DNA of 64,000 nucleotides, from assembly GCA_019637265.1 (NCBI GenBank), contig JAHBVY010000002.1:558001-622000 (forward strand). The letters are read 5' to 3'. Below the pieces are notes generated by a model. That model searched no databases and was not told where the DNA came from. It worked only from the letters and a program-made list of their open reading frames with translations. Source of the DNA: Polyangiaceae bacterium. Its GTDB lineage: Bacteria; Myxococcota_A; Polyangia; Polyangiales; Polyangiaceae. Shown here piece by piece: positions 34,247 to 52,811 of the stretch. The position numbers and the translations under genes were made by a program. Position 1 is the stretch's first letter, and each line of letters starts with the position of its first letter.

Positions 34247-36084
34247 CGCTCCGCAAAGAAGGCTGCATCACTGACTTGCAGCGTGGGGATGACGAGCGCG
34301 CGGTCGAGGTAGCGATTGCCGCACTCGCAGGATGTCTCCGCGACGAACGAGCACGCGTGGCAGGAGGCGGCGTGCAGAGAGGAGTCCTTCCGTGGGTTGT
34401 GCTCCGCGCAGAGCGGATCGGACGCGCAGACCTTCGCGCGGTCGAGCGCCTGCCGCAGCAAACGCCCGAGGTTCTCGGGCTTACCGAGATCGACGAGGCC
34501 GCCGAGCGTGCCGTCGGCGTCGGCCGCTGCCGTGTAAATCAGGATACCTGCCTGCGCCTTCCCGCCTTCGGTGTCAGCGTAGACGCGCTCCCGAATGCTC
34601 GCCGCGTTATAGCCGCAGTCGAGCGCGAGCTCACGAATAAGCAAGTGCGCGACCGTGTGGAGCAAGGCGTAGCGGACGCCAGGGAAGCCGCCGTCGGGGT
34701 CGAGCCGACGGGGAGCACGCCAACCCCGATGCCCGCGGCGTAGCTCGGCTTCCTGGATGCGCACCCCTTCGGTCGACTCCCACCCTGCGATCGCATCCTC
34801 AGAAAACTGTAGGAAGATCCCCTCACCGTGGACCTGGGTGGCTGGCACCCAGCTCGGCGCTCCACGACCCATGGACGCCCGCGGCGCGCGCTCCGCAGGA
34901 CCACCCTCGTTGGGTGACTCCACGCGCGTGAAGCCGAGCAGCGCGTTCACTTCACGCAGTCGCTCGAGGAGCAACACCCGGGACAGGTACCTCTCCAACC
35001 CCTTGGGGACGTCCACCCGCTTGCTCATGAAATGTGGGTAGTCAGTTGGAGGTACATCTGACGTGAGCACATCCCACTCGGGGCTCTTCAGGTCGGGCTC
35101 CTCGTCACCCACCGTTCCGCTACGATGAACCTGAATGGCCTCCCACACCTGATCGCCCGTGAAGGCGTCGATGCCAGGCAACTGAGCTGACTTCTTGAGC
35201 GTCTTCACGACGATGGCAGCTGCTTCGGAGCTCTCTACGTCCTCGAAGAACGCCCAGCCATCTGCGACGAGCTGCGCCAGCGGGCTCCCCGTCTGTGGGA
35301 TGGCGAGCACCGAGAGCGTCACCGGGAACCACCCGTTCGTCGCGCCGAGCAGGATGGCGCGTGGCTCGTCGGCGCAGCCCTCTTCGAACTTGTTGAGGTG
35401 CGGGTGTCGCCCGCGGCAACCCGGCAAGTTGCGCCGTCCAGCCTGCCCGAAGGCTTGAGCCATGCTCTTGGCAGCGCCACACGAGTCGCAGCGCACCCAC
35501 AGGTTCTCGGTTTGGAGTGAGGCTCCGCTCTCGAAGAAGCGCAGCGTGCCCCTGCAACCACTCGACCCTGCGTGGACGAACCAGTGCCAAGGGAAATCAT
35601 CGAGGTGGCCCTGACGGCAAGCGAGTAGGAAGCGGGCAGGCACCGCGTCCGCATCACGCGGCTTCTGCTCACCACGTGAGCCGGTGCAACCCTTGTGGAC
35701 GAAGCACGTCTTCTCGGGACGATAGCGATTCGCCTTCAGCTCGAAGAGGCCCGCATCGAACGGCGAGAGCAACCCGCACTTCACGCAGCGCATCCAGCGC
35801 GGGAATGGCTTCACCGGCACACCAACGAGCGCCTCGGCCGAGAATGGATCGATGACCTCACCTTCTGTCAGCGGCGGCATGCGCAGCGACTCGACCTGAT
35901 CGCCGAGCACACGACGCACGTTCGTAAGCAGCCGCGCCTCTTGGATCGGCTGACAGCGGCCGATCTCCCAGCGGTCGATGCCCATGGTGACGACGGAGAG
36001 GTTCGGGAGATCGATCAGCGCCCCAGGCCCGAACGTCCACAAGAGCTGACTCGGGCGGACCTCGCCCACTGGAGTCCTACTCAT
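34243..36084 (-). CDS. drmB: DISARM DUF1998 protein DrmB
   Basis: 613 aa. The central part contains CRQGHLDDFPWHWFVH, a DUF1998-type feature, with several CxxC pairs (CVKCGLLSPF, WVRCDSCG). The C-terminus has a dense Cys cluster (CASDPLCAEH...CHACSFVAETSCECG) around residues 553-590, probably zinc-binding. DrmB acts with the DrmA helicase in recognising incoming phage DNA in DISARM systems. 4-bp overlaps link it to drmA and drmC. Confidence 0.9.
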   Translation of the reverse strand: MSRTPVGEVRPSQLLWTFGPGALIDLPNLSVVTMGIDRWEIGRCQPIQEARLLTNVRRVLGDQVESLRMPPLTEGEVIDPFSAEALVGVPVKPFPRWMRCVKCGLLSPFDAGLFELKANRYRPEKTCFVHKGCTGSRGEQKPRDADAVPARFLLACRQGHLDDFPWHWFVHAGSSGCRGTLRFFESGASLQTENLWVRCDSCGAAKSMAQAFGQAGRRNLPGCRGRHPHLNKFEEGCADEPRAILLGATNGWFPVTLSVLAIPQTGSPLAQLVADGWAFFEDVESSEAAAIVVKTLKKSAQLPGIDAFTGDQVWEAIQVHRSGTVGDEEPDLKSPEWDVLTSDVPPTDYPHFMSKRVDVPKGLERYLSRVLLLERLREVNALLGFTRVESPNEGGPAERAPRASMGRGAPSWVPATQVHGEGIFLQFSEDAIAGWESTEGVRIQEAELRRGHRGWRAPRRLDPDGGFPGVRYALLHTVAHLLIRELALDCGYNAASIRERVYADTEGGKAQAGILIYTAAADADGTLGGLVDLGKPENLGRLLRQALDRAKVCASDPLCAEHNPRKDSSLHAASCHACSFVAETSCECGNRYLDRALVIPTLQVSDAAFFAER

Positions 36085-39000
36085 GGCGACTCCTCCACAT
36101 CGGTGGCTTCCCCCTCGACCGGCCTTGGGAGCCAGAGCGGGTCCTGGTTCGAACGGTCGTCCTCCATCACGAGGTTCACGCCAGGCTCCACTTCACGCAT
36201 CGACATGGGCACGGTCCAAGTAGACCAGGGTCTCGCCCCCGGCGCTTCGAGCAGCCCGTAGGCCGTCGAACCCGCACCACGCCGCTGGTAGACGAGGGTA
36301 CGACCAGGCACCGCCGCCTCCTTCACCCACTCATCGGCGCGACTCTTCAGCTCGGCTGTTGCCAGGTTCTTCTTTGCGGCGTCCTCCGTGACCTCCCAAG
36401 CGCGCTCGGTGATGGAATCGACAGTCGAGACCACCTCCGGGCGGCTGGGGCTGGTCAGCACACCCGCTCCAGCGTTCGGCGCCAACGGCTCGAAGCGGTT
36501 CCGCATCATCGCGAGCATCGCGCCGGTCAGGCCACGGTCCATCGCGCGAGGCGAGAACGGCGTGACCGACTGCGCCTCCACGTGTTGATAGAAGGTCGCG
36601 TGATAGTGCTCGAAGGTCTCGTAGTGCGAGAGATCGCGAGGCCGCGCCCAGGTGAGTACGGCTGCGACGAGACCGGGGAACGCGCGCCCGACGCGGCTCG
36701 TGGCCTGAATGTACTCGGCGGTCCCTTTGGGTTGTCCGTTCACGACCATGATGCCGAGACGGTTCACGTCCACGCCAACGGAGAGCATGTTCGTGGCGAG
36801 CACGACGTCGATGGGGCGAGGCACGCTCGGCCGCCCGCTACCCGTGCCAGATGGTGGCGCCAGCGTCGGCCGCACGAACTTACCCAGGTCGGGGTCGAAG
36901 CTGCCGTCGAAGGGGATCTCGAGTTGGTCCAGGTACTTCGGGATGTCCGCGTTACTCACACGAGAGGTGAGCTCGGCGATGATCTTGACGTTCCGCTGCT
37001 CGAGACCAGGGCGCTCGACAAGGCTCATTTTCACACGGAAAACACGTGTCTGGACGTCGTCTTCGGCCAGGCGCTTCATGCCGCCGAGCTCACGCAGTGA
37101 GTTGAAGTAGCCCACGAGCGTCATGTATGGATCGGCAATCTGACCGAAAGCGTCGAAGAGCCCTTGCGCCGCCGCGAGGAACGCGGTGTAGGTGCGGATG
37201 AGGACGGCGGGGCGTGAGCTGCCCGGGGAACAGATGCCCATATAGCGCCGCCCCGGTTTGCTCTCGACCGAGCGCTGCACCGAGAAGAAGTCGTCTTCGA
37301 CGTCGAGGGCCTTGGGCGGGAAGATGGCGGGGCGTCGCATGAAGACGTTGCGCACCTGGTCGGCTGCGCGCCGCACCGTCGCCGTCGACGCCACCACCTT
37401 CGGGCGCACCTTCGTCTTCCCGATTCGCCACGAGCACAAGTCATCGACGGCGGTCTCGTAGAGGCCAACCATCGTGCCGAGCGGACCGCTGATGAGATGA
37501 AATTCGTCCTGGATGATGAGATCCGGCGGGCGCACGCCGGGCACCACCTTCACTTTTGCGGCAGGGTGAGGCTTCTTCGCGTTGTGACCGCCACCGCAGT
37601 CGTGACCCGGCCACAGGAGCCCGTGGCGCTCGCACTCCTCGCGCACGTTACCGAAGAGCGTCCGCACCTCGACGCGCCACGCCATCATCGCGAACTTGTC
37701 GACGGTGGCGATCATCATCGTCGGAGGTCGGTGGTAGATCTCCTCGTCGACGAGCTTCACCGGCAGACCCGGGTGGGCGTTGGTGCTCGACTTCGCCTTG
37801 CTGAACTCGCACTGCGAGAGTTTATCGCCGCAGTAGATGGCGGTGCGTCCAGCGGCCTTGTCGACCTCGATGTCGCGTCCTGGTTGAATCTCGGTTCCAC
37901 ACCAGGGGCAGCTCGTGAGCTGCGCAGGTGAGGCGATGCCGGCGCGGTTGCGGTCCCTGTCACGGATGGCCTCGATGGCCCCGTGAGAGGCTTCTGTGGT
38001 TCCTGGCGTGACCTTGTTCCCGACCCACAGGCCAAGCGTGAACGGCTCCGCGCCCCATTTGGTCACGTCGTTCTTGCGGATGATCTCCATCGCGCAGAGC
38101 AGCGTCGCCGCGCGCTGGAACTGTTGCAGCGTCAGCAGGCGCAGCGTGTAGCGCATGATGACGGTGAGCCCGCGTCCGCCGTCGAGGTCCTCGACGACGC
38201 CCTGCAAGCGGCGGACACCCATCGCGAAGGCCGCCACGCCCAAGTAGGCCTCGGTCTTGCCACCGCCCGTGGGGAACCAGAGCAGGTCAGCGAAGGCCTC
38301 CGCAGGGCTCGTGCGGTCGGGGTGCTTTGGGTCGGCGAGTGACGGGATGGACAAGAGCAAGAACGCGAGCTGGAACGGGCGCCATGAGCGATTCTTCGGT
38401 ACATTAACCGAGTCGATCGTTAGCTCCTCGCCGCGTCGGCGCCGGAGCGCGTAGGTGCCTCGCACGCGCTGACGGGCCATGGCGCGGTTGGCGAAGCGAA
38501 ACGCCTCCAGCGCCTTCGCGTCGGCGAGCAGCACCGAGAGGCCTGCGCGCAGACGCTCGAGCGTCATCGCGCAGCGATCGAGCGCTTCCTTCGCGGGAGC
38601 GTCATACCCCGTGATCTCCGCGCCGACGCGAGCGCGCTGTTCGTCGATCCACGTGGCGTAGTCGTCGACGAGCGTCTTCAGCGCCTCTTCGAGTTCGGCC
38701 TCGTCGAGGTCGGCGAGCGACAGCATGTCGAGCCATCCTCGCTCGACCATCTTCTGCATCGCAGGACGGTCGTCGGGATCGAGGCCGGGCGTCTCGGTGA
38801 CGGGCACCTCGAAGCTCGGGATGACCTCCGTGCGCACCTCGGTTGCGCGCGTCGGATCGTCCTCGGCCGTCTCGGCATGAACGGCCACGCCATGACCCAC
38901 CGCGAACTCGACCTTGCGCCGATAGATGAGGCTGAGGTGGTCACGTTCGGCGTCATCGACGACGACGTCATTGCTTGGACGCCGTAGGAACACAGGGCTC

Positions 39001-40091
39001 CCCGCCGCATCATCCGCACCCTTCACGCTCAGCTCAGGTTGAAACAGCCAAGCACTGTCGCGGTTCGTCTTGGGTTCAAGCTGCACGTTGACCAGGAAGA
39101 GCGTGACGAGACGCTCCCCTTGGATGTTGGTGCGAATTGCACCCTGAACCCGAACGTCGTCATGCTCACTGTCAGGCGCGAACGGCTCGATGGGGCCATC
39201 CTTGAGGGCGAGCGTGACGTGACCACCGCACGGCGTGCGGCGCCAGACCTTCACCTTGGTCTCGTGGACCTCGTTCGTCTCGCGGTTCTTGCTCCTCCTC
39301 GTGTACTCATGCTCGTCGTTCGGAACTCGGGAGTAGCTTCCCCAACGAGCCGTGACGTCGAGGGCCTTCACGCCAGGCCCGACGCAGAACGTGAGGCCCA
39401 AGCTTGAGGGCACGAGCGACTGATTGTTGGTGGTGTCGATCTCGTCGAGGGCGTCGTCCTCGGGTTCGACCCGCCCGCTCACGCGGTGAAACTCTGCACC
39501 AGGCTCGTGTGTGGGAGCCTTCCGCTCATCGACCGAATCATCCTCCTCATCGGCTCCCGCTGAGGGCTCGACCTCACTCGTCTCCGCTACATCGCGCGGC
39601 TGATATGGTGCCAGCTTGCCGACGAGGTAGCGGTCACGAACGCTCATGTCGATGACGAGCTCCTCGGGGCCGTTGGCCGGCCCGAGCAAATCGTCGCGCA
39701 CCGCCAGCTCGAGCAGCTCCCGCACGTAGGCCGCGTCTTGGATGAGAGGGAGTTCGTCTGGATACCTGACACCATCGCGTGCGAGCATTGCCGAGAGGTC
39801 TTCGGGGCGTAGACGCGTGACGAGTCCCTGCGGCAGCGTGAGCCCCAGGTCGACGAGCGAGCCTGCCTTCTTCACGACGTGCAGCTTGTCGAGGTAGAGG
39901 GTCGTCGACTCAAGGCCCATGCGGATGCGGAGGATGCGACCCAGACGCTTCAGGGTTCCGCTTGAGTCCACGACGACGACCCAGTGGCCAGACGCGAGCG
40001 CACTGAAGCCAACGCGATCACCGTCGAGCCGAACGAGGAAGGGGCTAAGCGGCGTCGCCTCCTTGGTGAGCCATGCCTGCGTGGTCGTCAT
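36081..40091 (-). CDS. drmA: DISARM helicase DrmA
   Basis: 1336 aa, the family's usual size. Walker A is LWFPTGGGKTEAYLG (about 605-618), motif II is IIQDEFHLIS (about 857), and motifs V/VI are LATNMLSVGVDVNR and YIQATSRVGRAFPG (about 1095-1130). A zinc-like pair, CPWCGTEI...YCGDKLSQCEF, lies between the RecA lobes near residue 730. The N-terminal ~590 residues are the DISARM-specific part. The ATG overlaps the stop of the preceding small gene by 4 bp, so translation is probably coupled to the operon upstream. Confidence 0.92.
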   Translation of the reverse strand: MTTTQAWLTKEATPLSPFLVRLDGDRVGFSALASGHWVVVVDSSGTLKRLGRILRIRMGLESTTLYLDKLHVVKKAGSLVDLGLTLPQGLVTRLRPEDLSAMLARDGVRYPDELPLIQDAAYVRELLELAVRDDLLGPANGPEELVIDMSVRDRYLVGKLAPYQPRDVAETSEVEPSAGADEEDDSVDERKAPTHEPGAEFHRVSGRVEPEDDALDEIDTTNNQSLVPSSLGLTFCVGPGVKALDVTARWGSYSRVPNDEHEYTRRSKNRETNEVHETKVKVWRRTPCGGHVTLALKDGPIEPFAPDSEHDDVRVQGAIRTNIQGERLVTLFLVNVQLEPKTNRDSAWLFQPELSVKGADDAAGSPVFLRRPSNDVVVDDAERDHLSLIYRRKVEFAVGHGVAVHAETAEDDPTRATEVRTEVIPSFEVPVTETPGLDPDDRPAMQKMVERGWLDMLSLADLDEAELEEALKTLVDDYATWIDEQRARVGAEITGYDAPAKEALDRCAMTLERLRAGLSVLLADAKALEAFRFANRAMARQRVRGTYALRRRRGEELTIDSVNVPKNRSWRPFQLAFLLLSIPSLADPKHPDRTSPAEAFADLLWFPTGGGKTEAYLGVAAFAMGVRRLQGVVEDLDGGRGLTVIMRYTLRLLTLQQFQRAATLLCAMEIIRKNDVTKWGAEPFTLGLWVGNKVTPGTTEASHGAIEAIRDRDRNRAGIASPAQLTSCPWCGTEIQPGRDIEVDKAAGRTAIYCGDKLSQCEFSKAKSSTNAHPGLPVKLVDEEIYHRPPTMMIATVDKFAMMAWRVEVRTLFGNVREECERHGLLWPGHDCGGGHNAKKPHPAAKVKVVPGVRPPDLIIQDEFHLISGPLGTMVGLYETAVDDLCSWRIGKTKVRPKVVASTATVRRAADQVRNVFMRRPAIFPPKALDVEDDFFSVQRSVESKPGRRYMGICSPGSSRPAVLIRTYTAFLAAAQGLFDAFGQIADPYMTLVGYFNSLRELGGMKRLAEDDVQTRVFRVKMSLVERPGLEQRNVKIIAELTSRVSNADIPKYLDQLEIPFDGSFDPDLGKFVRPTLAPPSGTGSGRPSVPRPIDVVLATNMLSVGVDVNRLGIMVVNGQPKGTAEYIQATSRVGRAFPGLVAAVLTWARPRDLSHYETFEHYHATFYQHVEAQSVTPFSPRAMDRGLTGAMLAMMRNRFEPLAPNAGAGVLTSPSRPEVVSTVDSITERAWEVTEDAAKKNLATAELKSRADEWVKEAAVPGRTLVYQRRGAGSTAYGLLEAPGARPWSTWTVPMSMREVEPGVNLVMEDDRSNQDPLWLPRPVEGEATDVEESP

Positions 40092-40485
40092 GGGGTGCCT
40101 CCGGAGCGCTTGATGCGTTCGCCAAGAGCGATGAGCCGATAGCGCTGCAAGCGGCTCCTTGGCTTGTCGGGAAGTGTCATCTCGATGAGACCTGCGGCCA
40201 GGGCCGGTTGGAGATGGTTGGCAGTGAAGTGATCGCGGAGCAGCCCACCACCTCTTGACGTTCGCTCCGACCTACTCCTCCATGAAGCACCCGGGCGAGG
40301 CTTGTGACATGCCCGGTGACATGTTCGGTGACATGGTGAGTCATTAGCGGAGGCGACCTGCGACCTACCGTGTACATAACGGTATCGAAAACCGATTCCG
40401 GAGGCGCATGATGCGCCCTTCTGACCTCGACGCCGTTCCATTCACCGCGGCGGTGGAGGTCGCCGAGAAACGGCTGGCTCGTCAT
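40088..40485 (-). pseudogene. Small winged-helix protein gene with one frameshift
   Basis: ATG 40485 overlaps the AbiJ-like stop (ATGA) and the terminal TGA overlaps the drmA ATG (ATGA), so the gene sits exactly in operon register. The first frame ends with HHVTEHVTGHVTS, the linker repeat seen in AlbA_2/RecG-like winged-helix regulators. The second frame resumes at LLRDHFTANHLQPALAAGLI and reaches DKPRSRLQRYRL, the winged-helix recognition part of that family. Near 40250 one base must be gained or lost to join them. This could be real decay or a sequence error. Confidence 0.65.
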
Positions 40486-41294
40486 ATTGTTCCCCCTACG
40501 CGGGTTGTCTGCCTCTTTACGAGGTACGTCACAACGGCTGCACAGACCGCTGTTACTAGTTCGGCATCCTCGGCCGACGGTTCTCGGCCCTCCTGAAGAT
40601 GCCGACCAACCTCGGATGCGTAGCCCCACGCCTTCTCGACTGCTGAATCCAAAGGTCGTGGAATCGCAAGGGTGGTTCTGTAGTTCTTCAGCAGTGCACC
40701 CAGCGTCTGCTTTGGGTCCCCGCTGATATCGCGTGCGACGCACTCGAGGGCCGCCATTGAGTGTTGGATAGCACCCGTTCGATCTGGCGTTGGCCGGCGC
40801 GACAGGTCGCGCAGCGCCTCTTCAATCTCACTCTGTGCAGCCGAGCGACCCGCGCGCTGGAGCACCTGGTGCGCAGACTTGACGGCATGCTCGAAGGGCT
40901 GATCGCCTCGGTAGACAATCAGTCCGTGTTCCATTTTCCAGCCAATCCCCTGCTCGTAGAGAACGTCGTTCAGCTTACTCTCAAAGCTGCCACCCCTGCC
41001 GGCCCGTGCGACCTCCACATAGAATGTTTCCGAGATATCGTAGACGCGATACCACGTGCAAGTGGTGATCCGGTCTTCCACCTCGCTCGCGACGTTGGGC
41101 TCAGACCAATTGCTTCCGTCGGGAAACACTCGTAGCGTGCGACAGATGATGGTCCGCTGTGCAGACGGCTCGGAGAGACCTTCCTCGGCCGCGATCTGCA
41201 CGACAGCGTGTCTCAGTGCCTCGGGCGCCTCCTCACGCACTGTGATGGGTGCTACTTGGCCAGAGTACCCGTAGCGTCGGCTGAACGAAGTCAT
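40482..41294 (-). CDS. AbiJ-NTD4-like abortive-infection protein
   Basis: 270 aa. The N-terminus matches the AbiJ N-terminal domain 4 pattern: RYGYSGQVAPITVREEAPEA, IICRTLRVFPDGSNWSE, then CTWYRVYDISETFYVEV. The C-terminal half is helical (DLSRRPTPDRTGAIQHSMAA, then LECVARDISG). Such proteins are abortive-infection or defence-associated, often fused to effector domains. Located between the drmMI/HEPN block and drmA, an unusual place for DISARM cargo. A VTPQVTGQ-type repeat lies just upstream in its frame. Confidence 0.7.
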   Translation of the reverse strand: MTSFSRRYGYSGQVAPITVREEAPEALRHAVVQIAAEEGLSEPSAQRTIICRTLRVFPDGSNWSEPNVASEVEDRITTCTWYRVYDISETFYVEVARAGRGGSFESKLNDVLYEQGIGWKMEHGLIVYRGDQPFEHAVKSAHQVLQRAGRSAAQSEIEEALRDLSRRPTPDRTGAIQHSMAALECVARDISGDPKQTLGALLKNYRTTLAIPRPLDSAVEKAWGYASEVGRHLQEGREPSAEDAELVTAVCAAVVTYLVKRQTTRVGGTI

Positions 41295-41555: not shown

Positions 41556-41910
41556 TCAGTTCCCATCTTCACGTTTCAGCGCGCCAGCCCCAACATTCAC
41601 CATGGACAGTGCCTTCCCGTCATCGCTGTCATGTTTGGTAAACCCAGTGGTCTGCTGGCCGAATATGCTATCAGCCGCTTTGGCCAGAATGATGTCACGG
41701 TTTACAGCGTCGCCAGCCGCCTCAACGAGCGCGCGATAGGTGACAAGACTATTCTGGCGATGCTTATTGACAATGGCATTGTGGCGGTGAGCCATGTAGT
41801 TACGCGCTGCCAGGATGAGGAAATACGCCATGCTCGCGAACACGAGCATCTTCCCGATGCCGAACTGAAGGGCCTCAACGGAAGAACTTGGGGCGATCCA
41901 CGGGAGCTTA

Positions 41911-43040
41911 CTCCTAACTGCGGAAGAAACGCCTCGACTTTCGCGTAGTACACTGTATGCTCAACCTCGTGAAAAAGCGTGACGGTCGGAGCCTTGACCA
42001 CGCGACGCTCGAAGAGCTGCGTCGGCTTGCGGTGGCGCGTGTGCTTGAGGGCGAATCGCAGTCGGACGTTGCACGCGCTCTGCAGATGGATCGGACAACT
42101 GTCGTGCGATGGATGATGGCGTACCGCGCTGGCGGTGAGGCCGCGCTCGTGGCGAAGCCTGTTCCGGGCCGCCCATCGACCCTGACGGACAAGCAGAAGG
42201 CGGAGCTGCGCACGATTATCCTCGGGAAGGATCCGAGGCAGCTCGGGTTCGGCATGGCGCTCTGGACGGTGCGGCTCGTCGCCCAGGTGATCGAGCGTGA
42301 GTTCGGCGTTGTGCTCCACGAGACCACGGTTTCGCGGATGCTGCACGCGATGGGGCTCGTACCGCGCAAGCCGGTCAAGCGTGCGTTCTCGCGCGACGAC
42401 GACGAGTGCAATGCGTGGGCGGAGGAGGTTTTCCCGAAGATCGTCCGGCACGTGAAGCGGAAGCAGGCGACGCTGCTTTTCCTGGACGAGAGCGGTGTTC
42501 ACGAGGACGCGCCGATCGGCACGACGTGGAGCGAGCGCGGCAAGCGCCCGGTGGTGCGCGTGAAGGGCACGCGCGGGCGCACGAACGTCATCTCGGCGAT
42601 CGCGCCTCACGGACGCCTGTGGTTCCGCTGCTTTCAGAAGAACCTCAACTCGGCACTTTTCATCGAGTACCTGGACGCGCTCCTGCACGACCTGCGCGGT
42701 CACATCGTGCTCGTGATGGACAAGCATCCTGCGCACATCTCGGCGGCGACCCGGCGCCACATGAACGCGCGCTCGGACCGCCTCACCGTGCACTTCCTGC
42801 CTGGCTACGCACCTGACATGAACCCCGATGAGCACGTCTGGTCGTACCTCAAAGGCCTGTTTCGCTCCTCGCCGCTGATGCAGGATGAGAAGATCGGGCC
42901 AGTCGTCCAAGCGACCATGCAGGAGATCGCGAAGGACGCTCGACTCGTTCGCTCGTTCTTCGATCATCCCGAGGTCGCCTACGTAAAGACCGCGCTCAAA
43001 TGGTGAACGGATGTCGATCCACAACCAACGCATTCAGGAG
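41911..43040 (+). mobile_element. IS630-family insertion sequence
   Basis: 1130 bp flanked by TA on each side (41909-41910 and 43041-43042), the IS630 target duplication. Imperfect terminal inverted repeats start CTCCTaActGCG (left) and CTCCTgAatGCG (right, read inward). Carries one transposase gene and nothing else. Confidence 0.88.
41957..43006 (+). CDS. IS630-family transposase
   Basis: 349 aa. An N-terminal HTH (ARVLEGESQSDVARALQMDR) and a second HTH (TVSRMLHAMGLVPRKP) precede the DDE domain: LLFLDESGVHED (first D), VLVMDKHPAH (second D) and MNPDEHVWSYLKG (third acidic). Complete and apparently intact. It is opposite in direction to the operon it interrupts. Confidence 0.95.
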   Translation: MLNLVKKRDGRSLDHATLEELRRLAVARVLEGESQSDVARALQMDRTTVVRWMMAYRAGGEAALVAKPVPGRPSTLTDKQKAELRTIILGKDPRQLGFGMALWTVRLVAQVIEREFGVVLHETTVSRMLHAMGLVPRKPVKRAFSRDDDECNAWAEEVFPKIVRHVKRKQATLLFLDESGVHEDAPIGTTWSERGKRPVVRVKGTRGRTNVISAIAPHGRLWFRCFQKNLNSALFIEYLDALLHDLRGHIVLVMDKHPAHISAATRRHMNARSDRLTVHFLPGYAPDMNPDEHVWSYLKGLFRSSPLMQDEKIGPVVQATMQEIAKDARLVRSFFDHPEVAYVKTALKW

Positions 43041-43706
43041 TATGGAGCACAAGTGTCGAAGAGGCGAAGAGCCCCAGGAAGATGGTGAGATTCCGCGTGC
43101 GAGCCAGCCAGACCGTTGCCTCCTTAGCGTGCGCCTCCGACTCTTCCTTGAAGTACAATGCCTGCTGAGAGACACCTTGCTCGGCAGCCACCTTTCGGAT
43201 GGCATCAAGCGCCTGCTCTGCCTCGTCTTGGCGAGCCTTCAATTCTGCTTCGACCACCTTCGTGCGATCCTCGATAGACTGAATCGCCGCCCGCGCCTCG
43301 CGCTCCAGACGTGCAAAGTCAGTGTTCCGACGCACCGAATAGGCGATCGATGGCCAGAGCTGCTCAAAATAGTTGTCGTACCCATTAACAAGCTGAGAAA
43401 TGAGGCCGTCGCGAGTCTGCTTAGGATTGGCGGACCCTGCTGTGAAGTTCAGAATCTGCTGAATTACGCTAAAAAGTGCATCCGCTTGCTGCTTGATATT
43501 CTCGCGGCGCTTCTGACTCATGCCCTCCAATACGTCAGGTGACACCTCGAGAAAAAGGGCAAGCGTCCTCCGAAGGGGCGGAATTCCGTCGGCGAAATTC
43601 AGCTCATCCCCCAAGCTATCGCGACGACCGATGCTGTCAGCATCAAATTTCTGGATACGCTCGAGTGACGCCCTGGCTTCCTCGACGTTCTGGTCCTGCT
43701 CAAGCG

Positions 43707-45086
43707 TCATGGGCCCGTCCTTCCTCCGGCATCGTCGTTCTCCACGAATACACTCTTCTGAAACTCAACATATTCATCGGAACACGGCCACACCGCAGCA
43801 TCTGGAATCGACAACTTTCGGCCGAATCGCTCACAGTACAATTTTGCCACTTCTCCATACTCAGTCCGCGCGCGCCTTCTCCATAGAACTTGCTCGTTTG
43901 CCATGCTGATATCAATAAATTCACCATACCTCAACTCACGCCACTCCCCAACAAATGGCTCCACCAAGTGCCGATACCGCGCGTCGGCCACACTAAAACT
44001 CTCGCTCGCCCCATAAAGCTCAATGCCCAATCGGTGCACATCGTCCGCAAGGCGATCGCTCGAAACACAGCACTTCATCAGGTACACTACACCCTGCACA
44101 TCAACACTACAATTGACCGGTCCAGCCTTGACCCGTTCAAGTGCCGCACTAAGGTGCGCGCCAATATCCGGTGATAAGAAAGTTGCGTAACACCAGCGCC
44201 CCAGATCATCGCCTATCCATCCACTGATCGCAACTTGCGCATCAACACCCAAGGCCTGGAATACTCCGTGCGTCTCGGCACAGAACACAACAAGCATATG
44301 AAGCAGATGCGAGTTCGCCGATATACGCGAGTAGTAGCCCTGCTCTGCATGAATCAATGCTGGGGGGCGCTGCGAGATACGCTCGCCCACCACTGATAGC
44401 GCCATAAAGTTGATACCTCGATTTATGTCGCAATCATCATTTTCTGTTAGAAACACAAGCTTCCAGAGACTGCGAAAGAGCCGCTCCAGGTGGGTCGATG
44501 ACATGTGCTTGAGGAATCTTGACCTCAGAAACTGCGCAACGTCGTCCTTCGTCCTCAGAAATGTCGAGTATCCTGCAAGATCCTCAAGCACACGAATGTC
44601 AAGCGATGACGTGGCAGTTGCTGGCACCGTGAGTAGCTTCTCAAGCACGAGTCTCAGCTTCGCACGGACCTCATCACGGCTGGGCGTCGCGAGTTCGCCG
44701 GCAGCGCTGATCACGGGGTGGGCCGCAAGATGCCGCTGGTGCTGCAGGTTCTTCAAGAGGTCGCGCGTCGGAATGTCGATCCACCCCACGCGCGCCTGGG
44801 CTACCTCGACGAGACGCGTCTCCCACTCGGATGACTTAGGATTCGTACGGTTCATTTGCGCCAGGTCATCAAGCACCTCCGAGGCCACTTTGTCTGCAAA
44901 AAGGTCGCGCAGGTGGCATAGCTTCGCGTGCAGATCAAAGACGGCCACCGACCACAAACCGACGATCGCCGCACGATAGTTCCCATTGTTGAAGCTCGAG
45001 TAGACCTCGCGGAAGTACTCCTTCGAGTGGGACGAGACGATGCCGTCCACGAGATCATCCAAGGGAATGTCATTCGCGACGCTCAT
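43707..45086 (-). CDS. HEPN-like protein embedded in DISARM operon
   Basis: 459 aa, less GC-rich than flanking genes. The N-terminal helical region (NYRAAIVGLWSVAVFDLHAK) and the motif QRHLAAHP at residues 117-124 (R118-x4-H123) look like a HEPN domain, whose Rx4-6H motif is the catalytic centre of HEPN ribonucleases. The remaining ~300 residues are unassigned and helical. It overlaps drmMI (ATG 45086 / stop 45083) and the membrane-protein gene (4 bp each). The HEPN assignment rests on one motif and helical context. Confidence 0.6.
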   Translation of the reverse strand: MSVANDIPLDDLVDGIVSSHSKEYFREVYSSFNNGNYRAAIVGLWSVAVFDLHAKLCHLRDLFADKVASEVLDDLAQMNRTNPKSSEWETRLVEVAQARVGWIDIPTRDLLKNLQHQRHLAAHPVISAAGELATPSRDEVRAKLRLVLEKLLTVPATATSSLDIRVLEDLAGYSTFLRTKDDVAQFLRSRFLKHMSSTHLERLFRSLWKLVFLTENDDCDINRGINFMALSVVGERISQRPPALIHAEQGYYSRISANSHLLHMLVVFCAETHGVFQALGVDAQVAISGWIGDDLGRWCYATFLSPDIGAHLSAALERVKAGPVNCSVDVQGVVYLMKCCVSSDRLADDVHRLGIELYGASESFSVADARYRHLVEPFVGEWRELRYGEFIDISMANEQVLWRRRARTEYGEVAKLYCERFGRKLSIPDAAVWPCSDEYVEFQKSVFVENDDAGGRTGP

Positions 45087-48000
45087 CGGCCGCCCCTCCT
45101 GGTTGCCTTCTTCGCAGGCCCGGTGGCCTTGGTCTTGGCAGCCTTCGCGGCGGGCTCGGGAGCGTCGACGAGGGCGAGCGCACCTTGGCCAGTAGGCACC
45201 GCCTTTGCGCGGCCCTTCGACGTGCGAGGCTTCGCGACGGGCGCGGCAGCTTGCTCCTCCTCGTACCGCTGGCGATTCAGCTCGGCGAAGCGACGCAGCA
45301 CCTCGACACGAGCAGCATCCGAGATCGTGAAGCGGATGCGGTCTTTCTCGGCAAGGTTCGGCTGCTCGTGGTAGCCGTGGCCAAGGTCAAGGTCGTCCCA
45401 GCCGTAGGCGCACATGACGGCGGCATCGATCTCGCGGTGCATCTCGCGGAGGCGCATGATGCGCGCGTCGACGTCGGTCTGGTTGTGGAAGCGGTTGTAG
45501 AGCTTCGTGAGGCCGATCGGGTTCACCGCATCGATCATGACCTCGCGGCGGGCCTTCAGGTACGCGCGGCCAAACGCCTCGAATCCGGCAAGCACCTCGG
45601 GTTGTGGGAATGGGAATGTTCCGATGGAATCAGATGGTGCGAACCTGAGCGCCGTGCCAAAGGTTGATGACTGCTTGCGCACCCAAGCATCCGTCAGACT
45701 TGAATTCAAAATCGCTGCGAAAGAGTACGGCAACGGAACAGAAACCACCACACACTGATCACTAAAAATCGCATCGTTGATGACCACAGATGGGGCGAAG
45801 TACTTACCGACACGAGCCGTGACAAGCACATCAGCAGGCGGAGCAATACTCGAATCCCATCCCCTAGGGTGACGACTGAACGCATGACCGCGTCCAATCG
45901 CGTGATAGACCTCGGTACGGGCTCTCCAATGCAACCACCACATTGACAGGATGTTCCGATATGACTTGTCCTTGCTTTTCTCGATCCTCTCAGGGTATAC
46001 TCTACCCCTGATCCATGAGTACGGCAGCGTATACTCCTTGGCCCTACTCTCTGGCCAGTCCCAAAAGTTGATGACCCACCGATGGGCCTTTTGACCGGGA
46101 CCAGAGTTTATATCATCGCCGTTAACATACGGCAACACAACGTCAGCGTTCCTGGGACTTGCTCGCAGCATTGCTTGGGCCTCATCTTCTGTCAGCACAA
46201 AGCCCATCCCGTTCACAAAGGAGCCAATGAACGCCATGCCAGCGTTGGCCGCCAGCTGCTTAGGTGTCCATTCATTGACCGCGGATAAGAAGGGTGAGAT
46301 AAACGGGACATCAAGTCCACTGAGGCGACGAGTCCCTAGCCAATTTCCTTTGCGGATATGGATACAGCTCGTTACAACGGCCGCTTGTCCCGGCCACGGC
46401 TCGTTTGGATATGCCGAATGGATCGTTGCGCCGTGTTTGCTCATCCATTCAATGCCACCTTGCCGGGTGTCGCCTTCGGCGATCGTGTTGACCGCCAGAA
46501 GACCGAACCCACTCACGTCTCGAAGTAGGTCAAAGGCACGCCTAAAGAAGTGGGCAACCAGATCAGTGTTCTTGTTCGCCGGAGGATGAGCAGTGGCTAA
46601 GTAGCCATTGTATACCCAGCCAAGGACAGTACCAATGCGCTTTCCCCCTAAAAATGGAGGATTGCCCACGATGGCGTCGAACCCCAGCGTAGCCCCATGG
46701 AAGACATCGGGGAACTCAAGCGGCCAGTGAAAAGGACGTCGCGGGCTCCCGCTTGGCGAGTCCTTCGCGAGGTCCTTGGCCGCGCGCCTCGCCAGCGTAT
46801 CGGTCGGGTGCTCCTCGCCCTTCAGAACGCGGTCGGCATCTACAGCAAGCACGGCGAGCCGCGCCTCTACGTCCGCACCCTCTGCCGCGAACACGATGCC
46901 AATGAAGGCATCGGCGAGCAGCTCCGCCGCCTCAAGCTTCCTGCGCACATCGGCGTCGAGCGCCGCCATCGCCTCGACGTCGCGAATATCGCGGATGGCG
47001 ATCTCGCGCAACTTACGACGCAGCTCAACAGCCTCGGCCACCGCCCTCTCGATGTCCTTGCCGAACAAGCGCCCCTGTCGCGCAGCCTTCGCATCAAGCG
47101 ACAGCTCCGTGAGCTGCTCCAACCGGCTGATGCCCAGCAGGCTGTCACCATGACGGAGGTTGTGATCGAGGAACCCAAAGGGCCGCCCCTTCGACAACGT
47201 CACCAGCCACAGCGAGAGCTTCGCTAGCTCGACGGCGAGCGGGTTCAGGTCGACGCCGTAGAGGCAGCGCTCGGCTACAAGGCGCCGCGCGTGCTCGGCG
47301 CGAACTTCGGCACCGGGCGGCATCACCTCGACGCTGCTCCGCGGCTCGTGCACTTGGCCGGTGATGTCCACGACGCGACCAGCGGCTTCTTCGATGTCCC
47401 ACGCCTCGACGAGGCGCGCGCTCAGGAAGCGGCACGCCTGCACCAGGAACGCACCCGAGCCCATCGCCGGGTCGCAGACCTTCAGGTCGAGGAGTAGCGA
47501 AGGCGTCTTCAGCTTCCACTCGGCGCGCGGCGCTCCCTTCGAAGGGCCATCGTAGACGATGGGTGTGAGCGTCTCCTCGACGATGCGCTCGGTGAGGCTC
47601 TTTGGGGTGTAGTGCGTGCCGGTCTCGCGGCGGTCGGCACCGAGTACGACGACGAACGCGCCCTTCGGGTGGACCAGCGGATAGCCCCACGGGTCGCTGC
47701 GTAATAGCCGCATGTAGGGCGCGAGTCGATCGCGCAGCTCCAGATCGCCCCGACACGCCGAGAGCAGGCGCGCGCTCTGCTGGGGCTCTATCTCGGCGGC
47801 GATCGCCTTGCCGATAGCCGACTTAGAGCGCTTCGTTCGCTTCACGAACAGCTCCACGACGGCCGCCTTGCCATCGAGGCGCGCCGACTCCAGCTCACCT
47901 AGCGTGACGCGTGCGTCCTTTGCGGAGGCGCCCGCTTCCAGTTCCAGGGTCACGTCGTCGACGCGCGAGACGGTGCGCTCGAGCAGGCCTTCGTAGACGT

Positions 48001-49243
48001 GGCCGATCTGTTCGACGTCGAGCGCACGGTAGGAGAGCGTGCGCCCCTCGAAGGTCTGGATGGCCTCGAGCAGCAGCAGCGCCGTGCGATCGTCGATGGG
48101 CAGCGGCTCGGCGCGGTGCTGGCGCCACGACGTGCCCTTCAGCCGTCCTTCGAGGAACGGGAAGCGGTCGGGATCGAAGAGCGAGCCGCCCATTGCGGGC
48201 AGGCGCAGCGTCGGGTGATCGATGCCGCCGAAGACGGCGCGGAACACCGCGAGCAGCCGCGACCACGCAGCGCGCCGACGTTCGAGGATCTCGTCGCTCT
48301 CGGCTCGGAGCTGCATGCGCAGCGTGGAGACCGCGTAGAACGAGTCGTAGCGGGGCTCACCCAAGAGCAGGAGCCCGCGCTCCTCCGCGGCGAGCAGGAA
48401 CACGAGCCGCATCATCACCGTGAGCCCGGCCTCGTACAGCTCCTGCGGCTTCACGTCGCGGAGCAGTTCGCGGTTGCGATCTTGATCGGCGCGGTCGAGC
48501 GCCTGCACCAGCACCTCGATGGCGCGTCGAACCTGATCACCGAGGGCGTCGGTGACCTCATCCTGGTGCTTCAGCGAACGCTCGAACAGCGCAGGGAGCT
48601 GATCTTGCTCAGGACCGAACAAGCGGCGCACACCGAGCAGCGACCCGAACGCGCGCAAGGTGTCGGGCTCCTGGGCCCAGATGCGTGCGTACCAGCTCGC
48701 GAAGCTCGCCACCTGGCCCGTGGGTGCGTGGACCAGCATCCAGCCCTCACCATTGGTGACGAGCCCGAACGGCTTGTTCAGCGCGCGCAAATGCAGCGCC
48801 ATGCGATCCCCGGGTGAACACGACAGGCCATCGAACTTCATCGAAGCCGAGAGGTCAGTGTCCGGCGGGAAGACGTGGATGGGCGCGAGGACGGCCCCAC
48901 CCTTCGTCGGGTCAACGAAGACGAACTCCGGTGCGATGGACGTGTCGTGCTCAGGCAACGTGACGACCGACGCGGGAACGTCCTTCCCAACCTTCAGCAA
49001 CTGATCGTCCGCCTCGAGCGCGGTGCTCAGCACCTCGTCGATCCAGGCGGCGTGCAGCCTGTCGCGGTCGAGGTCGTCGCCATCGACCGCATCACGCCAC
49101 TCCTCGTAGGCGCTACGAAGCCGCTTGGCGCGCTGCGCATCAAGCTCCTCGAGCCCCTGCGGGAACACCTCGCGCAGCACCGGCACCGCGAGGAACGGGC
49201 CCGAGACCTCGAGCAGGTTCAGCCACTCGTGCTTAGAGCTCAT
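45083..49243 (-). CDS. drmMI: DISARM N6-adenine DNA methyltransferase DrmMI
   Basis: 1386 aa. SAM-binding motif I is KVCDPAMGSGAFLVQACRF and the catalytic NPPF motif is in FDAIVGNPPFLGGKR (about residue 860). Length and layout are those of PglX-like/DrmMI enzymes that methylate host DNA in class 1 DISARM. The C-terminus is a Lys/Ala-rich basic tail. Residues about 860-1215 (45600-46650) are encoded by DNA visibly poorer in G+C than the rest of the gene. That part should hold the target-recognition region, suggesting exchange of specificity. 4-bp overlap with drmD. Confidence 0.9.
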   Translation of the reverse strand: MSSKHEWLNLLEVSGPFLAVPVLREVFPQGLEELDAQRAKRLRSAYEEWRDAVDGDDLDRDRLHAAWIDEVLSTALEADDQLLKVGKDVPASVVTLPEHDTSIAPEFVFVDPTKGGAVLAPIHVFPPDTDLSASMKFDGLSCSPGDRMALHLRALNKPFGLVTNGEGWMLVHAPTGQVASFASWYARIWAQEPDTLRAFGSLLGVRRLFGPEQDQLPALFERSLKHQDEVTDALGDQVRRAIEVLVQALDRADQDRNRELLRDVKPQELYEAGLTVMMRLVFLLAAEERGLLLLGEPRYDSFYAVSTLRMQLRAESDEILERRRAAWSRLLAVFRAVFGGIDHPTLRLPAMGGSLFDPDRFPFLEGRLKGTSWRQHRAEPLPIDDRTALLLLEAIQTFEGRTLSYRALDVEQIGHVYEGLLERTVSRVDDVTLELEAGASAKDARVTLGELESARLDGKAAVVELFVKRTKRSKSAIGKAIAAEIEPQQSARLLSACRGDLELRDRLAPYMRLLRSDPWGYPLVHPKGAFVVVLGADRRETGTHYTPKSLTERIVEETLTPIVYDGPSKGAPRAEWKLKTPSLLLDLKVCDPAMGSGAFLVQACRFLSARLVEAWDIEEAAGRVVDITGQVHEPRSSVEVMPPGAEVRAEHARRLVAERCLYGVDLNPLAVELAKLSLWLVTLSKGRPFGFLDHNLRHGDSLLGISRLEQLTELSLDAKAARQGRLFGKDIERAVAEAVELRRKLREIAIRDIRDVEAMAALDADVRRKLEAAELLADAFIGIVFAAEGADVEARLAVLAVDADRVLKGEEHPTDTLARRAAKDLAKDSPSGSPRRPFHWPLEFPDVFHGATLGFDAIVGNPPFLGGKRIGTVLGWVYNGYLATAHPPANKNTDLVAHFFRRAFDLLRDVSGFGLLAVNTIAEGDTRQGGIEWMSKHGATIHSAYPNEPWPGQAAVVTSCIHIRKGNWLGTRRLSGLDVPFISPFLSAVNEWTPKQLAANAGMAFIGSFVNGMGFVLTEDEAQAMLRASPRNADVVLPYVNGDDINSGPGQKAHRWVINFWDWPESRAKEYTLPYSWIRGRVYPERIEKSKDKSYRNILSMWWLHWRARTEVYHAIGRGHAFSRHPRGWDSSIAPPADVLVTARVGKYFAPSVVINDAIFSDQCVVVSVPLPYSFAAILNSSLTDAWVRKQSSTFGTALRFAPSDSIGTFPFPQPEVLAGFEAFGRAYLKARREVMIDAVNPIGLTKLYNRFHNQTDVDARIMRLREMHREIDAAVMCAYGWDDLDLGHGYHEQPNLAEKDRIRFTISDAARVEVLRRFAELNRQRYEEEQAAAPVAKPRTSKGRAKAVPTGQGALALVDAPEPAAKAAKTKATGPAKKATRRGGR

Positions 49244-52200
49244 GACTTCCCCCGCGTGGCGAGAGACTCAGGCACCAGGAGGACGACCGCGATGGGGAAG
49301 GTGTGGTCGACGAGCCCCGTGTGGCGCGCTTCGATGGCGCCGCGCTCCCGCTCGAGTTCGTCAGGGATGCGACTCAAACGCGCCTCGAGCGCCAGCTTGT
49401 CGCGTCGGAGCTGTGTGCGCTCGTCCTCGGAGAAGAGCGAGAGCTGCTTCGGGTCGTCCTTCTTCAGCTCGGCTTCGAGGTTCTTGGCCAGGTCGCCGAG
49501 GAGCTGGGTCATCTCTTCCATCTCCTGGCGCTTGTGCCGTTCGATCGTACTGCCGAGGCCCTTCAGACGGTCCTTCGAGCGTACGCCGACGGCGCCGACG
49601 ATGGCCTCGGTGTGCTTCTGGAACCGCGCGCGCAGAGCGCTAAAGAGGGAGCCAGGGATCTCGCCTGGCTCGGAGGTATCGAGCCAGGAGCGCAGCTCAC
49701 CGATGCGGTCTTCGCGCCTGAAGGCCGCATCACGCAAGTAGCCGCCCGCCTCCGTCAGCTCTTCGTGGAGGCGGTGATGGTTGCCCCCGGTGACGACGAG
49801 ACGCGAGACCACGAGGGCGGCGGGGCCCTCGAGCATCGCGTCGGGCAACGTGCGCACCGTCACGCGATTTAGCTTCTTCACGTCGTCACGCGCCCAAACC
49901 TCGGCGCGCAAGAGCCGCAAGCTCATCTGAACGAGCGGGTGGTTCAGGTGGACGAGCACCACATCGTCGCGCCCTTTGGCCACGTCGTGATCGAAGGTGA
50001 TGGGGCGGATACGCTTCGTGAAAGGGTCTTCAAGCCCATCGAGACAGCGCGACCAGGAACCCGCCAGCGCGGGCATCTGGAACACGCGAGCGTCCGGCAG
50101 GTTAGCCAGCTTCGCTGGTGTGAGATCGGGCTTGTCGGTCAGCGACAAGGCGACACGCACCACGCGCTCGATGCGTTCGGGGGTGAGGTGCTGCTCGCTG
50201 CGCGTCGTCATCAGCCGCTCGTGCAACTTCGCGACGCGCTCACGCACGGCACGCTCCGCCTTCACGAACTGACGCGCGCGCGCGTGCCGTGAATCTTTGG
50301 GCTCGAACCTACCATCAGGGAGCTCCCGAAGGCCCGTCTCGAGATCTCGGCGGCGGCCTTCGAGCAGCGCTGGTAGCTGCGGTGCGATGACCGGGTTCAC
50401 GCTGCCCATGTCGGCGCGCATCGCGTCGAGCTTGCGGAGCGCGCGAAGGATGTCTTCACCGCGGCCACCCCCTGCATCCACGGGGTGCCAGATGACGACC
50501 TCGCTCTGCTTCTGCCCGTGGCGGTCGACGCGGCCGTTCCGCTGCTCCATCACGTTGGGGTTGTAGGGGATCTCGATGTGGACCAGCAGGTTGCAGTGGT
50601 TCTGCAGGTCGATGCCCTCCGAGGCCGCGTCGGTCGCGAGCAGGATGCGCACTGGTGACTCACGCGGGTCCGCTTGGAACGCAGCCTTGATGGCTTCGCG
50701 CTCCTTCGGATCCATGCCGCCGAAGAGCAGCGCGAGGCGGTCAGCGCCGAGGCCGTGGCTGGCCAGGATTTCCTGTAGCCACTTCTGCGTCGCACGGTAC
50801 TCCGTGAAGAGGATGACGCGCGCGTCCGTCCACTGGCCCTTGGGACGCAGGTTCGCTTCGAGCCAGCGCAGCAGCGCCTCCGCCTTCGAGTCAGGCTTGT
50901 GGCTGGCTTGCTCAGCCCACGAGCGCAGCTGCCCGAGGAGTTCCTGCTCGTCAGCCGAGAGCGGGCGCAACCGACGGCTCGCCTCTTCGATGGCCTCGGC
51001 CTCCGCGGACTCGCGCGTGTCGTCGTCGGCGTAGTCCTCTTCGGTCTTCGCGATCGCGCGCCGGAGGATGCGGTCATCGAGGCGTGACGAGCGCTTCGCT
51101 TCGCCTCGGCCCTCAAGGGTCGCTGTGTGCCGCGCGAGCGTCGCCATGAACGCTGCGGGAGACGACGCGAGGCGCTTGCGCAGGAGCTGATGCACGAAAT
51201 GCGAGGCGGCCCCCTCTCGCTCGTCCTGCTTCTCACGGCTCGCGATGTACTGCTCGAGGAGCTGACGAGCCTGGCGCTCGTCCGCCGTGTACTCCACGTT
51301 CAGCGCCTCGAGGCGGCGCGTTGGGTAGAGCTTCTTGCCCTTGGCGTCGACGAGGTCGCTCTTGAGCCGGCGCACCATCACGCGCGCGAGCTGGTCCTCC
51401 GAAGGCAGGACATTGCGCGAGAAGCGCTGGTCGTCGAGCAGCTCTAGCAGCGCCGTGAATGACTCCGTGTAGCCATCGTGCGGCGTCGCCGTGAGGAAGA
51501 GCTTGTGCTGGAAGTGCGGCGCGAGCAGCCGCACGAGGCGGGTACGCAGGCTCTCCACTGCATACTTGCCGACGGTGGGCGCGACGTTGTGAGCCTCATC
51601 CATGACGAGCACGTCGAAGCGACGCGGGAAGGTGGGCTGCGATGGGAGCACGTCGCGCAGGAGGCGGATGCCTTCGCCTTGCTTCGCCCAGTCGATGGAG
51701 GCGATCAGCCTCGGGAACGAAGTCCAGGGATTGGCGTGTAGCCCACGCTCACGGCGCAGGCTCTTCACGGCGCTGGTGTCGACGATGCGAAACTCGAGAC
51801 CAAACTTCTCGGCCATCTCGCTGCGCCACTTCTCTTGGAGCGATGCGGGGCAGAGCACCAAGACGGTCCGCGCGCGGTGGCGCAGGAGCATCTCCTGGAT
51901 GACGAGCCCGGCCTCGATGGTCTTGCCGAGGCCGACGTCATCGGCGATGAGTAGGTTCGTGCGCGCCATATCGATCGCGCGCACGAGGGGATCGAGCTGG
52001 TAGTCCTCGATGCTCGCGCCGCTACGGAACGGCGCTTGGAGGTAACCGCGGTCGGCGTTGGTCGCCGCGCCCCAACGCACGGCGTCCAGGAAGGCTTCAA
52101 GCCGAGCGGGGTCATCGAGTCCCGCGAGTGTTGGTAGACCCGCGCGCTCGATGACATGCGCGCCCGGCTCGAGCTCCCACAAGACCTCGATCTCCTCGCC

Positions 52201-52371
52201 GAGCGCGTCCTCATCGATCGAAGCGAGCTTGACGACGTGCTGCTTCGGCAGCTCAGGCGAGACCGCGGCGGCATCGACGTCGGAGACGATCCATTGGCGG
52301 CGCCGCACTTCGACGAGCTGCCCTGGCTCTGGGCTCGCCTGCGACAGCACCAAGTTCTCATTCCTGCTCAT
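49240..52371 (-). CDS. drmD: DISARM SNF2-family helicase DrmD
   Basis: 1043 aa from ATG 52371 (MSRNENLVLSQASPEPGQLV). A longer frame to 52563 lies inside the vsr gene and lacks homology. Walker A is DDVGLGKTIEAGLV (about 140), motif II is VLVMDEAHNVAP (about 255). The C-terminal lobe has TDAASEGIDLQ and EQRNGRVDRHGQ (about 605). The SNF2 helicase is the marker of class 1 DISARM. The start overlaps the vsr stop by 4 bp. Confidence 0.92.
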   Translation of the reverse strand: MSRNENLVLSQASPEPGQLVEVRRRQWIVSDVDAAAVSPELPKQHVVKLASIDEDALGEEIEVLWELEPGAHVIERAGLPTLAGLDDPARLEAFLDAVRWGAATNADRGYLQAPFRSGASIEDYQLDPLVRAIDMARTNLLIADDVGLGKTIEAGLVIQEMLLRHRARTVLVLCPASLQEKWRSEMAEKFGLEFRIVDTSAVKSLRRERGLHANPWTSFPRLIASIDWAKQGEGIRLLRDVLPSQPTFPRRFDVLVMDEAHNVAPTVGKYAVESLRTRLVRLLAPHFQHKLFLTATPHDGYTESFTALLELLDDQRFSRNVLPSEDQLARVMVRRLKSDLVDAKGKKLYPTRRLEALNVEYTADERQARQLLEQYIASREKQDEREGAASHFVHQLLRKRLASSPAAFMATLARHTATLEGRGEAKRSSRLDDRILRRAIAKTEEDYADDDTRESAEAEAIEEASRRLRPLSADEQELLGQLRSWAEQASHKPDSKAEALLRWLEANLRPKGQWTDARVILFTEYRATQKWLQEILASHGLGADRLALLFGGMDPKEREAIKAAFQADPRESPVRILLATDAASEGIDLQNHCNLLVHIEIPYNPNVMEQRNGRVDRHGQKQSEVVIWHPVDAGGGRGEDILRALRKLDAMRADMGSVNPVIAPQLPALLEGRRRDLETGLRELPDGRFEPKDSRHARARQFVKAERAVRERVAKLHERLMTTRSEQHLTPERIERVVRVALSLTDKPDLTPAKLANLPDARVFQMPALAGSWSRCLDGLEDPFTKRIRPITFDHDVAKGRDDVVLVHLNHPLVQMSLRLLRAEVWARDDVKKLNRVTVRTLPDAMLEGPAALVVSRLVVTGGNHHRLHEELTEAGGYLRDAAFRREDRIGELRSWLDTSEPGEIPGSLFSALRARFQKHTEAIVGAVGVRSKDRLKGLGSTIERHKRQEMEEMTQLLGDLAKNLEAELKKDDPKQLSLFSEDERTQLRRDKLALEARLSRIPDELERERGAIEARHTGLVDHTFPIAVVLLVPESLATRGKS

Positions 52372-52811
52372 CGCCGCACCTTCGCCGTGAGGCGCGCCTC
52401 GATGACGCGAGCGATGCGGTCCGCCGCCACCTTCGGCTCTTCGTGGGCCCACACGCGTATGACGCACCAACCCTCTGCGCACAGACGTGCATTGGTGTCG
52501 CCATCGCGTGCGACGTTGGCTTCGATCTTCGCACGCCAAAAGTCTGCGTTCTTCTTGGGCCACGTCGCGTGTTGGGGACAGCCATGCCAGAAGCAGCCGT
52601 CGACGAAGACGGCCACACGCGGGCCACTGAAAACGACATCAGCGACCCGACGCGGCTTGGTCAACAGCGGGACCTGAAGCCGGTAGCGGAGACCCCGAGC
52701 ATGCAGCTCGCGACGCAGCGCAGCCTCGCAAGCGGTGTTCTTCTGCCGAACACGCTGCATGCGGCGTCGAGCTTCAGGCGAACTCGGCGCTACTCTCGTA
52801 CTCACGACCAT
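52368..52811 (-). CDS. vsr: Vsr-like mismatch endonuclease
   Basis: 147 aa. The Vsr signature RVADVVFSGPRVAVFVDGCF and WHGCPQH is present, then KKNADFWRAKIEANVARD and GWCVIRVWAHE. The Asp in ADVVF is the expected catalytic residue. Vsr enzymes nick at T:G mismatches produced by deamination of 5-methylcytosine, so pairing with the adjacent C5 methyltransferase makes sense. It overlaps that gene by 38 bp and drmD by 4 bp. Confidence 0.9.
   Translation of the reverse strand: MVVSTRVAPSSPEARRRMQRVRQKNTACEAALRRELHARGLRYRLQVPLLTKPRRVADVVFSGPRVAVFVDGCFWHGCPQHATWPKKNADFWRAKIEANVARDGDTNARLCAEGWCVIRVWAHEEPKVAADRIARVIEARLTAKVRR

Follow-up and report, generated by a model that had tools for sequence, protein, structure and literature searches.

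A drmMI–drmA junction of class 1 DISARM as a probable cargo slot for independent single-gene defence cassettes

Results

A class 1 DISARM (defence island system associated with restriction–modification) operon, in which about 5 kb of non-core genes separate drmMI from drmA, was analysed in a stretch of 64,000 nucleotides from a Polyangiaceae bacterium (assembly GCA_019637265.1, contig JAHBVY010000002.1, positions 558,001 to 622,000 of the forward strand). This whole stretch is called the window, and all coordinates below are positions in it. The gene order on the minus strand is drmMII-like, vsr, drmD, drmMI, the non-core block, drmA, drmB and drmC, and the products of drmD, drmMI, drmA, drmB and drmC each match PADLOC profiles, as is expected of a class 1 DISARM host. 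The block is bordered upstream by drmMI (45083..49243, minus strand), which encodes an MmeI/PglX-like adenine methyltransferase, and downstream by the helicase gene drmA (36081..40091, minus strand, matched by a PADLOC profile). It contains gene 1 (43707..45086, minus strand), gene 2 (start at 43710, minus strand) with an insertion sequence (IS) of the IS630 type inside it, a gene for an AbiJ_NTD4 protein and a Fic-like remnant. The start of gene 1 overlaps the stop of drmMI by 4 bp, and the start of gene 2 makes a second 4-bp overlap with gene 1. These coordinates agree with an earlier note, made from the letters of the DNA, which had placed two such overlapping genes in this interval, and its view that neither is a standard DISARM part was borne out. 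The IS element, the AbiJ_NTD4 gene and the Fic-like remnant had escaped that note.

Gene 1 (459 aa) was assigned by a PADLOC profile, a PDB sequence match and a structural model to the known single-gene defence family PD-T7-3. The PADLOC profile PDLC04108 (PD-T7-3) was matched with an E-value of 5e-104 (346.8 bits) over profile positions 5-417 of 432 and residues 8-422 of 459, and PDB entry 9wxf was matched by phmmer with an E-value of 5e-44, the identity of gene 1 to PD-T7-3/Dandelion being 27%. The same PADLOC profile gave 558 bits with P2-EC30 ORF1, whose 455 aligned residues are all identical to those of the 9wxf protein, named 'Dandelion'; the PDB name of 9wx2 is 'Dandelion-hepn', and no paper accompanying these structures (9wxf, 9wx2) was found in the literature searched. 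As an observation in its own right, P2-EC30 ORF1 (L008, Z-region), annotated as hypothetical, is PD-T7-3/Dandelion. PD-T7-3 was discovered by functional screening of E. coli isolates, and its protection was strongest against T-even phages (Vassallo et al. 2022, PMC9519451). Relatives of the family in viral contigs numbered 0 by a single-sequence query and 17 by an alignment query.

The full-length model of gene 1 (predicted local distance difference test, pLDDT, 90) consists of an N-terminal HEPN domain at about residues 14-160, followed by a helical repeat-like C-terminal part which resembles many HEAT/ARM-type structures. With Foldseek, no match at E ≤ 0.001 was obtained for the full model, and the list held HEAT-like and designed repeats; residues 1-160 were modelled alone for the HEPN comparison because the full-model list was being filled by such repeats. 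The model of residues 1-160 (pLDDT 90) was compared structurally, and the comparison was led by the HEPN structures 2hsb (Z 11.2) and 2q00 (Z 11.0; classed as HEPN in PMC3710099), with further matches to the HpeT toxin (Z 10.3), toxins of MNT-HEPN pairs (Z 10.3-8.0), the sacsin HEPN domain (Z 9.8), Csm6' (Z 8.9) and AbiV (Z 8.3), most unrelated rows being below Z 7. In Foldseek on the same residues HEPN chains headed the list, yet their E-values were all above 0.05. The HEPN fold proposed for the N-terminus in the earlier note is supported by this modelling, essentially all top rows being HEPN. The domain is nevertheless invisible to Pfam in the PD-T7-3 family, because no HEPN family was reported in a scan of gene 1 and 57 HEPN-domain members.

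An active HEPN motif has been described as Rx4-6H in which R is followed by a polar residue, together with an acidic Ex3[KR] site; it has been lost from several HEPN groups that are presumed to be inactive (PMC3710099). Gene 1 fits this description with R118-H119...H123 and D51xxxK55 (D in place of E), so that both residues of the Rx4H motif noticed earlier (R118/H123) are present. RHxxAHP (R118-H-L-x-A-H123-P, with H119 and P124) as well as D51 and K55 were invariant across 67 aligned relatives, an invariance which is in part selected, since RHxxAHP was built into one of the two patterns used for searching; relatives found without a pattern (plasmid and whole-genome sequences, by tblastn or profile) still keep R, H and P. 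On the motif and the modelled fold, the HEPN domain of gene 1 is probably a metal-independent ribonuclease (RNase), with R118/H123 as the catalytic residues and D51xxxK55 in support.

Gene 2 is disrupted by the IS630-type element (41909..43042, plus strand; 1,134 bp, both TA copies counted; DDE_3 transposase open reading frame (ORF) at 41957-43006), which splits it between its two hydrophobic transmembrane (TM) segments. The 5' two thirds (43043..43710, minus strand) keep the N-terminus, the coiled coil and the first TM segment, and the 3' part (41556..41908, minus strand) keeps the second TM segment and the C-terminal tail. The termini of the element (TACTCCT.../...AGGAGTA) form short inverted repeats, with a TA target duplication, and one further, partial copy was seen in the genome (G000:C2:112253-112690; 94% over 438 bp). 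The broken frame stops at 42979 and encodes 243 aa with one TM-like segment, the last 20 residues being encoded by the IS. By reconstruction of the empty site, a protein of 340 aa with a coiled coil and two TM segments, ending at 41556, was obtained; this two-TM protein is taken to be the ancestral form, because full-length uninterrupted relatives in other genomes are 333-344 aa. The coiled coil with two TM helices described in the earlier note therefore stands across the empty site, but not as an intact ORF from 43710 to 41556, which the insertion interrupts. The gene is presumably inactive in this strain.

No PADLOC or Pfam name was found for the gene 2 family: with the Pfam family DUF6161 the best relative scored 14.8 bits, under the gathering cut-off of 27, and PDC-M64C gave a weak match (E 2.5e-4) in the coiled coil only, with no match for one relative. 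By sequence search in the PDB, no structure was found for gene 2 or for the AbiJ_NTD4 protein. Relatives of gene 2, of which viral contigs yielded 0 by a single-sequence query and 4 by an alignment query, are lone genes, located beside prophage genes (L209-L212), after methylase genes in a cluster resembling restriction–modification (R-M) loci (L112), and in a cassette array of the Vibrio tubiashii plasmid pFP31 (L109, 9487-21684). The spacers of this array are repeats of about 120 bp, mostly 70-91% alike and integron-cassette-like, and the array also holds likely defence genes (AbiH, HEPN-associated and GIY-YIG). A stand-alone function of gene 2 is suggested by these settings.

Whether genes 1 and 2 recur together, as a toxin with its membrane partner, was examined in 101 other loci of the PD-T7-3 family (plasmids, genomes and viral contigs), 82 of which had at least 1.5 kb of downstream sequence. 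A gene 2 relative was present in 0/101 and the DISARM core set likewise in 0/101, and no PD-T7-3-family gene was found beside gene 2 among the relatives examined. The pairing put forward in the earlier note was thus not found at any other locus, and gene 2 is broken here; a conserved two-gene system was rejected on these two grounds. Most of the 101 loci are lone genes, including those in P2-like prophage DNA, on plasmids and at other sites. Because the relatives of both genes are mostly lone genes and were not paired in the loci examined, genes 1 and 2 look like separate portable genes.

A SNF2-type helicase gene was located nearby upstream in 19 of the 101 loci; where ORFs had been called, it mostly lay directly upstream, with an overlap of about 4 bp. 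The order in one of them (L043) is IetAS, a 1,087-aa methylase, a BrxHI/HmaA-like SNF2 helicase and, last, the PD-T7-3-family gene; L037 and about 15 further loci likewise have the family gene last, behind a SNF2 helicase resembling BrxHI/HmaA. The family gene closes a type I R-M operon in L047 (1575-11257), where a GmrSD-like gene lies between hsdS and hsdR.

All junctions in the collected class 1 DISARM loci were measured, and gaps of at least 600 bp were recorded as inserts. In the first sample, inserts were found at 23/34 drmMI-drmA, 8/50 drmD-drmMI, 0/30 drmA-drmB and 1/18 drmB-drmC junctions, and the enrichment at drmMI-drmA was significant against drmA-drmB (Fisher test, p 3e-9) and against drmD-drmMI (p 2e-6). 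A second sample, anchored on DrmA in the same family, gave 11/12, 1/8, 0/20 and 0/18, respectively, so that drmA-drmB carried 0/50 inserts when both samples were pooled. Many first inserts are co-directional with drmMI and directly abut it. Two unrelated genes occupy the drmMI-drmA junction in a Microvirga DISARM, and none in Deinococcus. The nearest operon (L158, G111) is 81% identical to the window in DNA before the cargo and 84% after it, the cargo being non-homologous between window positions 45107 and 40087. The gap counts are firmer than the contents of individual inserts, since ORF calling is rough in GC-rich DNA; these contents include a REase_II-type GHKL protein (L158), a PifA-type KAP with a GHKL protein (L147), GmrSD (L163), GHKL with Methyltransf_35 and PDC-M65B (L159), Fic PDC-S72 (L161), the kinase PDC-S65 (L194), PtuA-/PtuB-like (Septu-like) genes (L247, L181, L235) and an OLD-type ATPase (L166). 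Text searches, which did not extend to subscription papers, and the papers PMC12458937 and PMC12839542 yielded no earlier description of a cargo slot in DISARM.

The third cargo gene of the window (40482..41294, minus strand) encodes the 270-aa AbiJ_NTD4 protein, which was placed by profiles in the PADLOC candidate single-gene family PDC-S32 (E 7e-32, profile positions 7-281 of 285; Pfam 68.8 bits against a cut-off of 34) and whose relatives were found on many plasmids. It is followed by a remnant (40088..40441, minus strand) which ends in a Fic-like C-terminal domain (PF21247, E 1.7e-15), overlaps the start of drmA by 4 bp and is probably what is left of a former cargo gene. In L161, the same slot carries a Fic gene. 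A derivation of the remnant from AlbA-type cargo as in L244 was considered and dropped, no similarity being found.

The other genes of the operon, all on the minus strand and matched by PADLOC profiles, are drmB (34243..36084), drmC (33482..34246; PLD nuclease), the SNF2 helicase gene drmD (49240..52563), the gene for a Vsr-like endonuclease (52368..52811) and that for a drmMII-like cytosine methyltransferase (52774..53970). The true start of drmD probably lies near 52350, because the profile match begins only at residue 73. When drmMI was compared with that of the nearest operon (L158), DNA identity broke down in a stretch of about 1.4 kb towards the 3' end (window 45279-46702) and returned before the stop. 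This stretch is a probable target-recognition region, and the pattern suggests an exchange of drmMI specificity separate from the exchange of cargo.

Discussion

The drmMI-drmA junction is probably a cargo slot, which in the window holds three independent single-gene defence cassettes riding on DISARM transcription, with no dedicated toxin-partner pair among them. The HEPN domain of gene 1 would act as an RNase kept in check by the helical-repeat C-terminal part; upon sensing of the phage, the C-terminal part may release the HEPN domain, and the ensuing RNA cleavage would end in abortive infection. Gene 2 would be a formerly stand-alone membrane protein gene inactivated by the IS630-type insertion, and the AbiJ_NTD4 protein would be the third independent cassette. 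The cargo genes may use the transcription of the DISARM operon via the 4-bp start-stop overlaps, and may broaden DISARM or back it up.

Several points weigh against this reading. The loci of the slot survey are mostly from the phylum of the window itself. Not every insert is operon cargo, since ORFs that are small or of doubtful status make up part of the content and some inserts have the opposite orientation. HEPN domains can also be non-catalytic. Finally, the placement of gene 1 within DISARM could be a rare accident, because PD-T7-3 has been reported as absent from defence islands (PMC10799925).

The serious rival is passive carriage, in which the junction is tolerated and perhaps recombination-prone, and mobile defence genes uncoupled from DISARM take from it a ride and perhaps a promoter. 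It is plausible without being probable: the slot contents are extremely varied, the IS element and the Fic-like remnant indicate turnover, and inserts on the opposite strand fit it as well, but the many co-directional first inserts abutting drmMI do not, nor do the several independent operons whose last gene, behind a SNF2 helicase gene, is of the PD-T7-3 family, which hint at a coupling to defence of the methylase-helicase kind. The cargo might wait until DISARM fails, add to its action or ride with it.

A reading in which the HEPN domain senses RNA by binding it, without catalysis, and gene 1 blocks the phage through another activity of its C-terminal part is unlikely. In its favour, the HEAT/ARM-like part in the model could bind nucleic acid or protein, but R, H and the acidic site are kept throughout the 67 diverse sequences, which is typical of catalysis, and the motif has been lost in several of the groups thought inactive (PMC3710099). 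That a HEPN toxin and a membrane partner form one two-gene abortive back-up, firing upon DISARM failure, is very improbable: the 4-bp overlap of genes 1 and 2, the HEPN fold and motif of gene 1 and the HEPN back-up effectors proposed inside loci of the bacteriophage exclusion (BREX) type (PMC12839542) speak for it, but gene 2 is split, the pair is absent from the 101 other loci and from the neighbourhoods of gene 2 relatives, and there is no need to invoke a failure of DISARM, because PD-T7-3 and BxaP, which resembles it in structure, protect E. coli alone, without DISARM or BREX (PMC9519451, PMC10799925).

The HEPN call is correct but points to a known family, and the main interest lies in the swappable slot. 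A bolder extension of the cargo-slot reading, offered tentatively, is that a fixed drmMI-drmA slot swaps single-gene, often suicidal modules under operon transcription, DISARM serving as a second-line docking platform; that the same logic put PD-T7-3-family genes behind the helicase of other restriction-type operons; and that gene 2 represents an undescribed stand-alone defence family. If true, the junction would be a simple spot for finding unknown defence genes by aligning DISARM operons, the idea of layered defence, so far described for BREX, would reach DISARM, and it could be tested directly whether suicide genes of the HEPN type work independently of the host restriction system or after it. 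For a new single-gene defence, the gene 2 family offers an immediate candidate.

Among known systems, the IS630 family is matched by the inserted element in its DDE_3 transposase with several helix-turn-helix domains, its TA duplication and its short terminal inverted repeats. PD-T7-3 (PDB 9WXF/9WX2/9WWZ) is homologous to gene 1 over the full length and shares the HEPN N-terminus, the RHLxAHPV motif and the helical C-terminus, but it stands alone in P2-like prophage DNA, whereas gene 1, at 27% identity, lies inside class 1 DISARM. BxaP, which has a PD-T7-3-like fold according to a comparison by its authors, is encoded in BREX type 3, with pglXI and brxHII on either side; it acts in the absence of BREX, appears abortive and needs the N-terminal proline P121 (PMC10799925). 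Set beside gene 1 by its description, it is likewise an extra gene with a PglX-type methylase gene on one side and the next core gene on the other, the host system being BREX for BxaP and DISARM for gene 1. In the BREX system of pEFER, the GmrSD enzyme BrxU is encoded between brxC and pglX (PMC8565348), and a survey of 2026 described auxiliary and back-up effectors in BREX and BREX-related loci, with no mention of DISARM (PMC12839542). These auxiliary effectors resemble the DISARM cargo as extra nucleases (HEPN, GmrSD, OLD, PIN and others) within a defence operon built around a methylase; no DISARM slot is described in the two papers, whereas the DISARM inserts concentrate at one junction. With class 1 DISARM itself the window shares the standard order of drmD, drmMI, drmA, drmB and drmC, plus drmMII and Vsr, and it differs in the non-core genes which occupy about 5 kb between drmMI and drmA.

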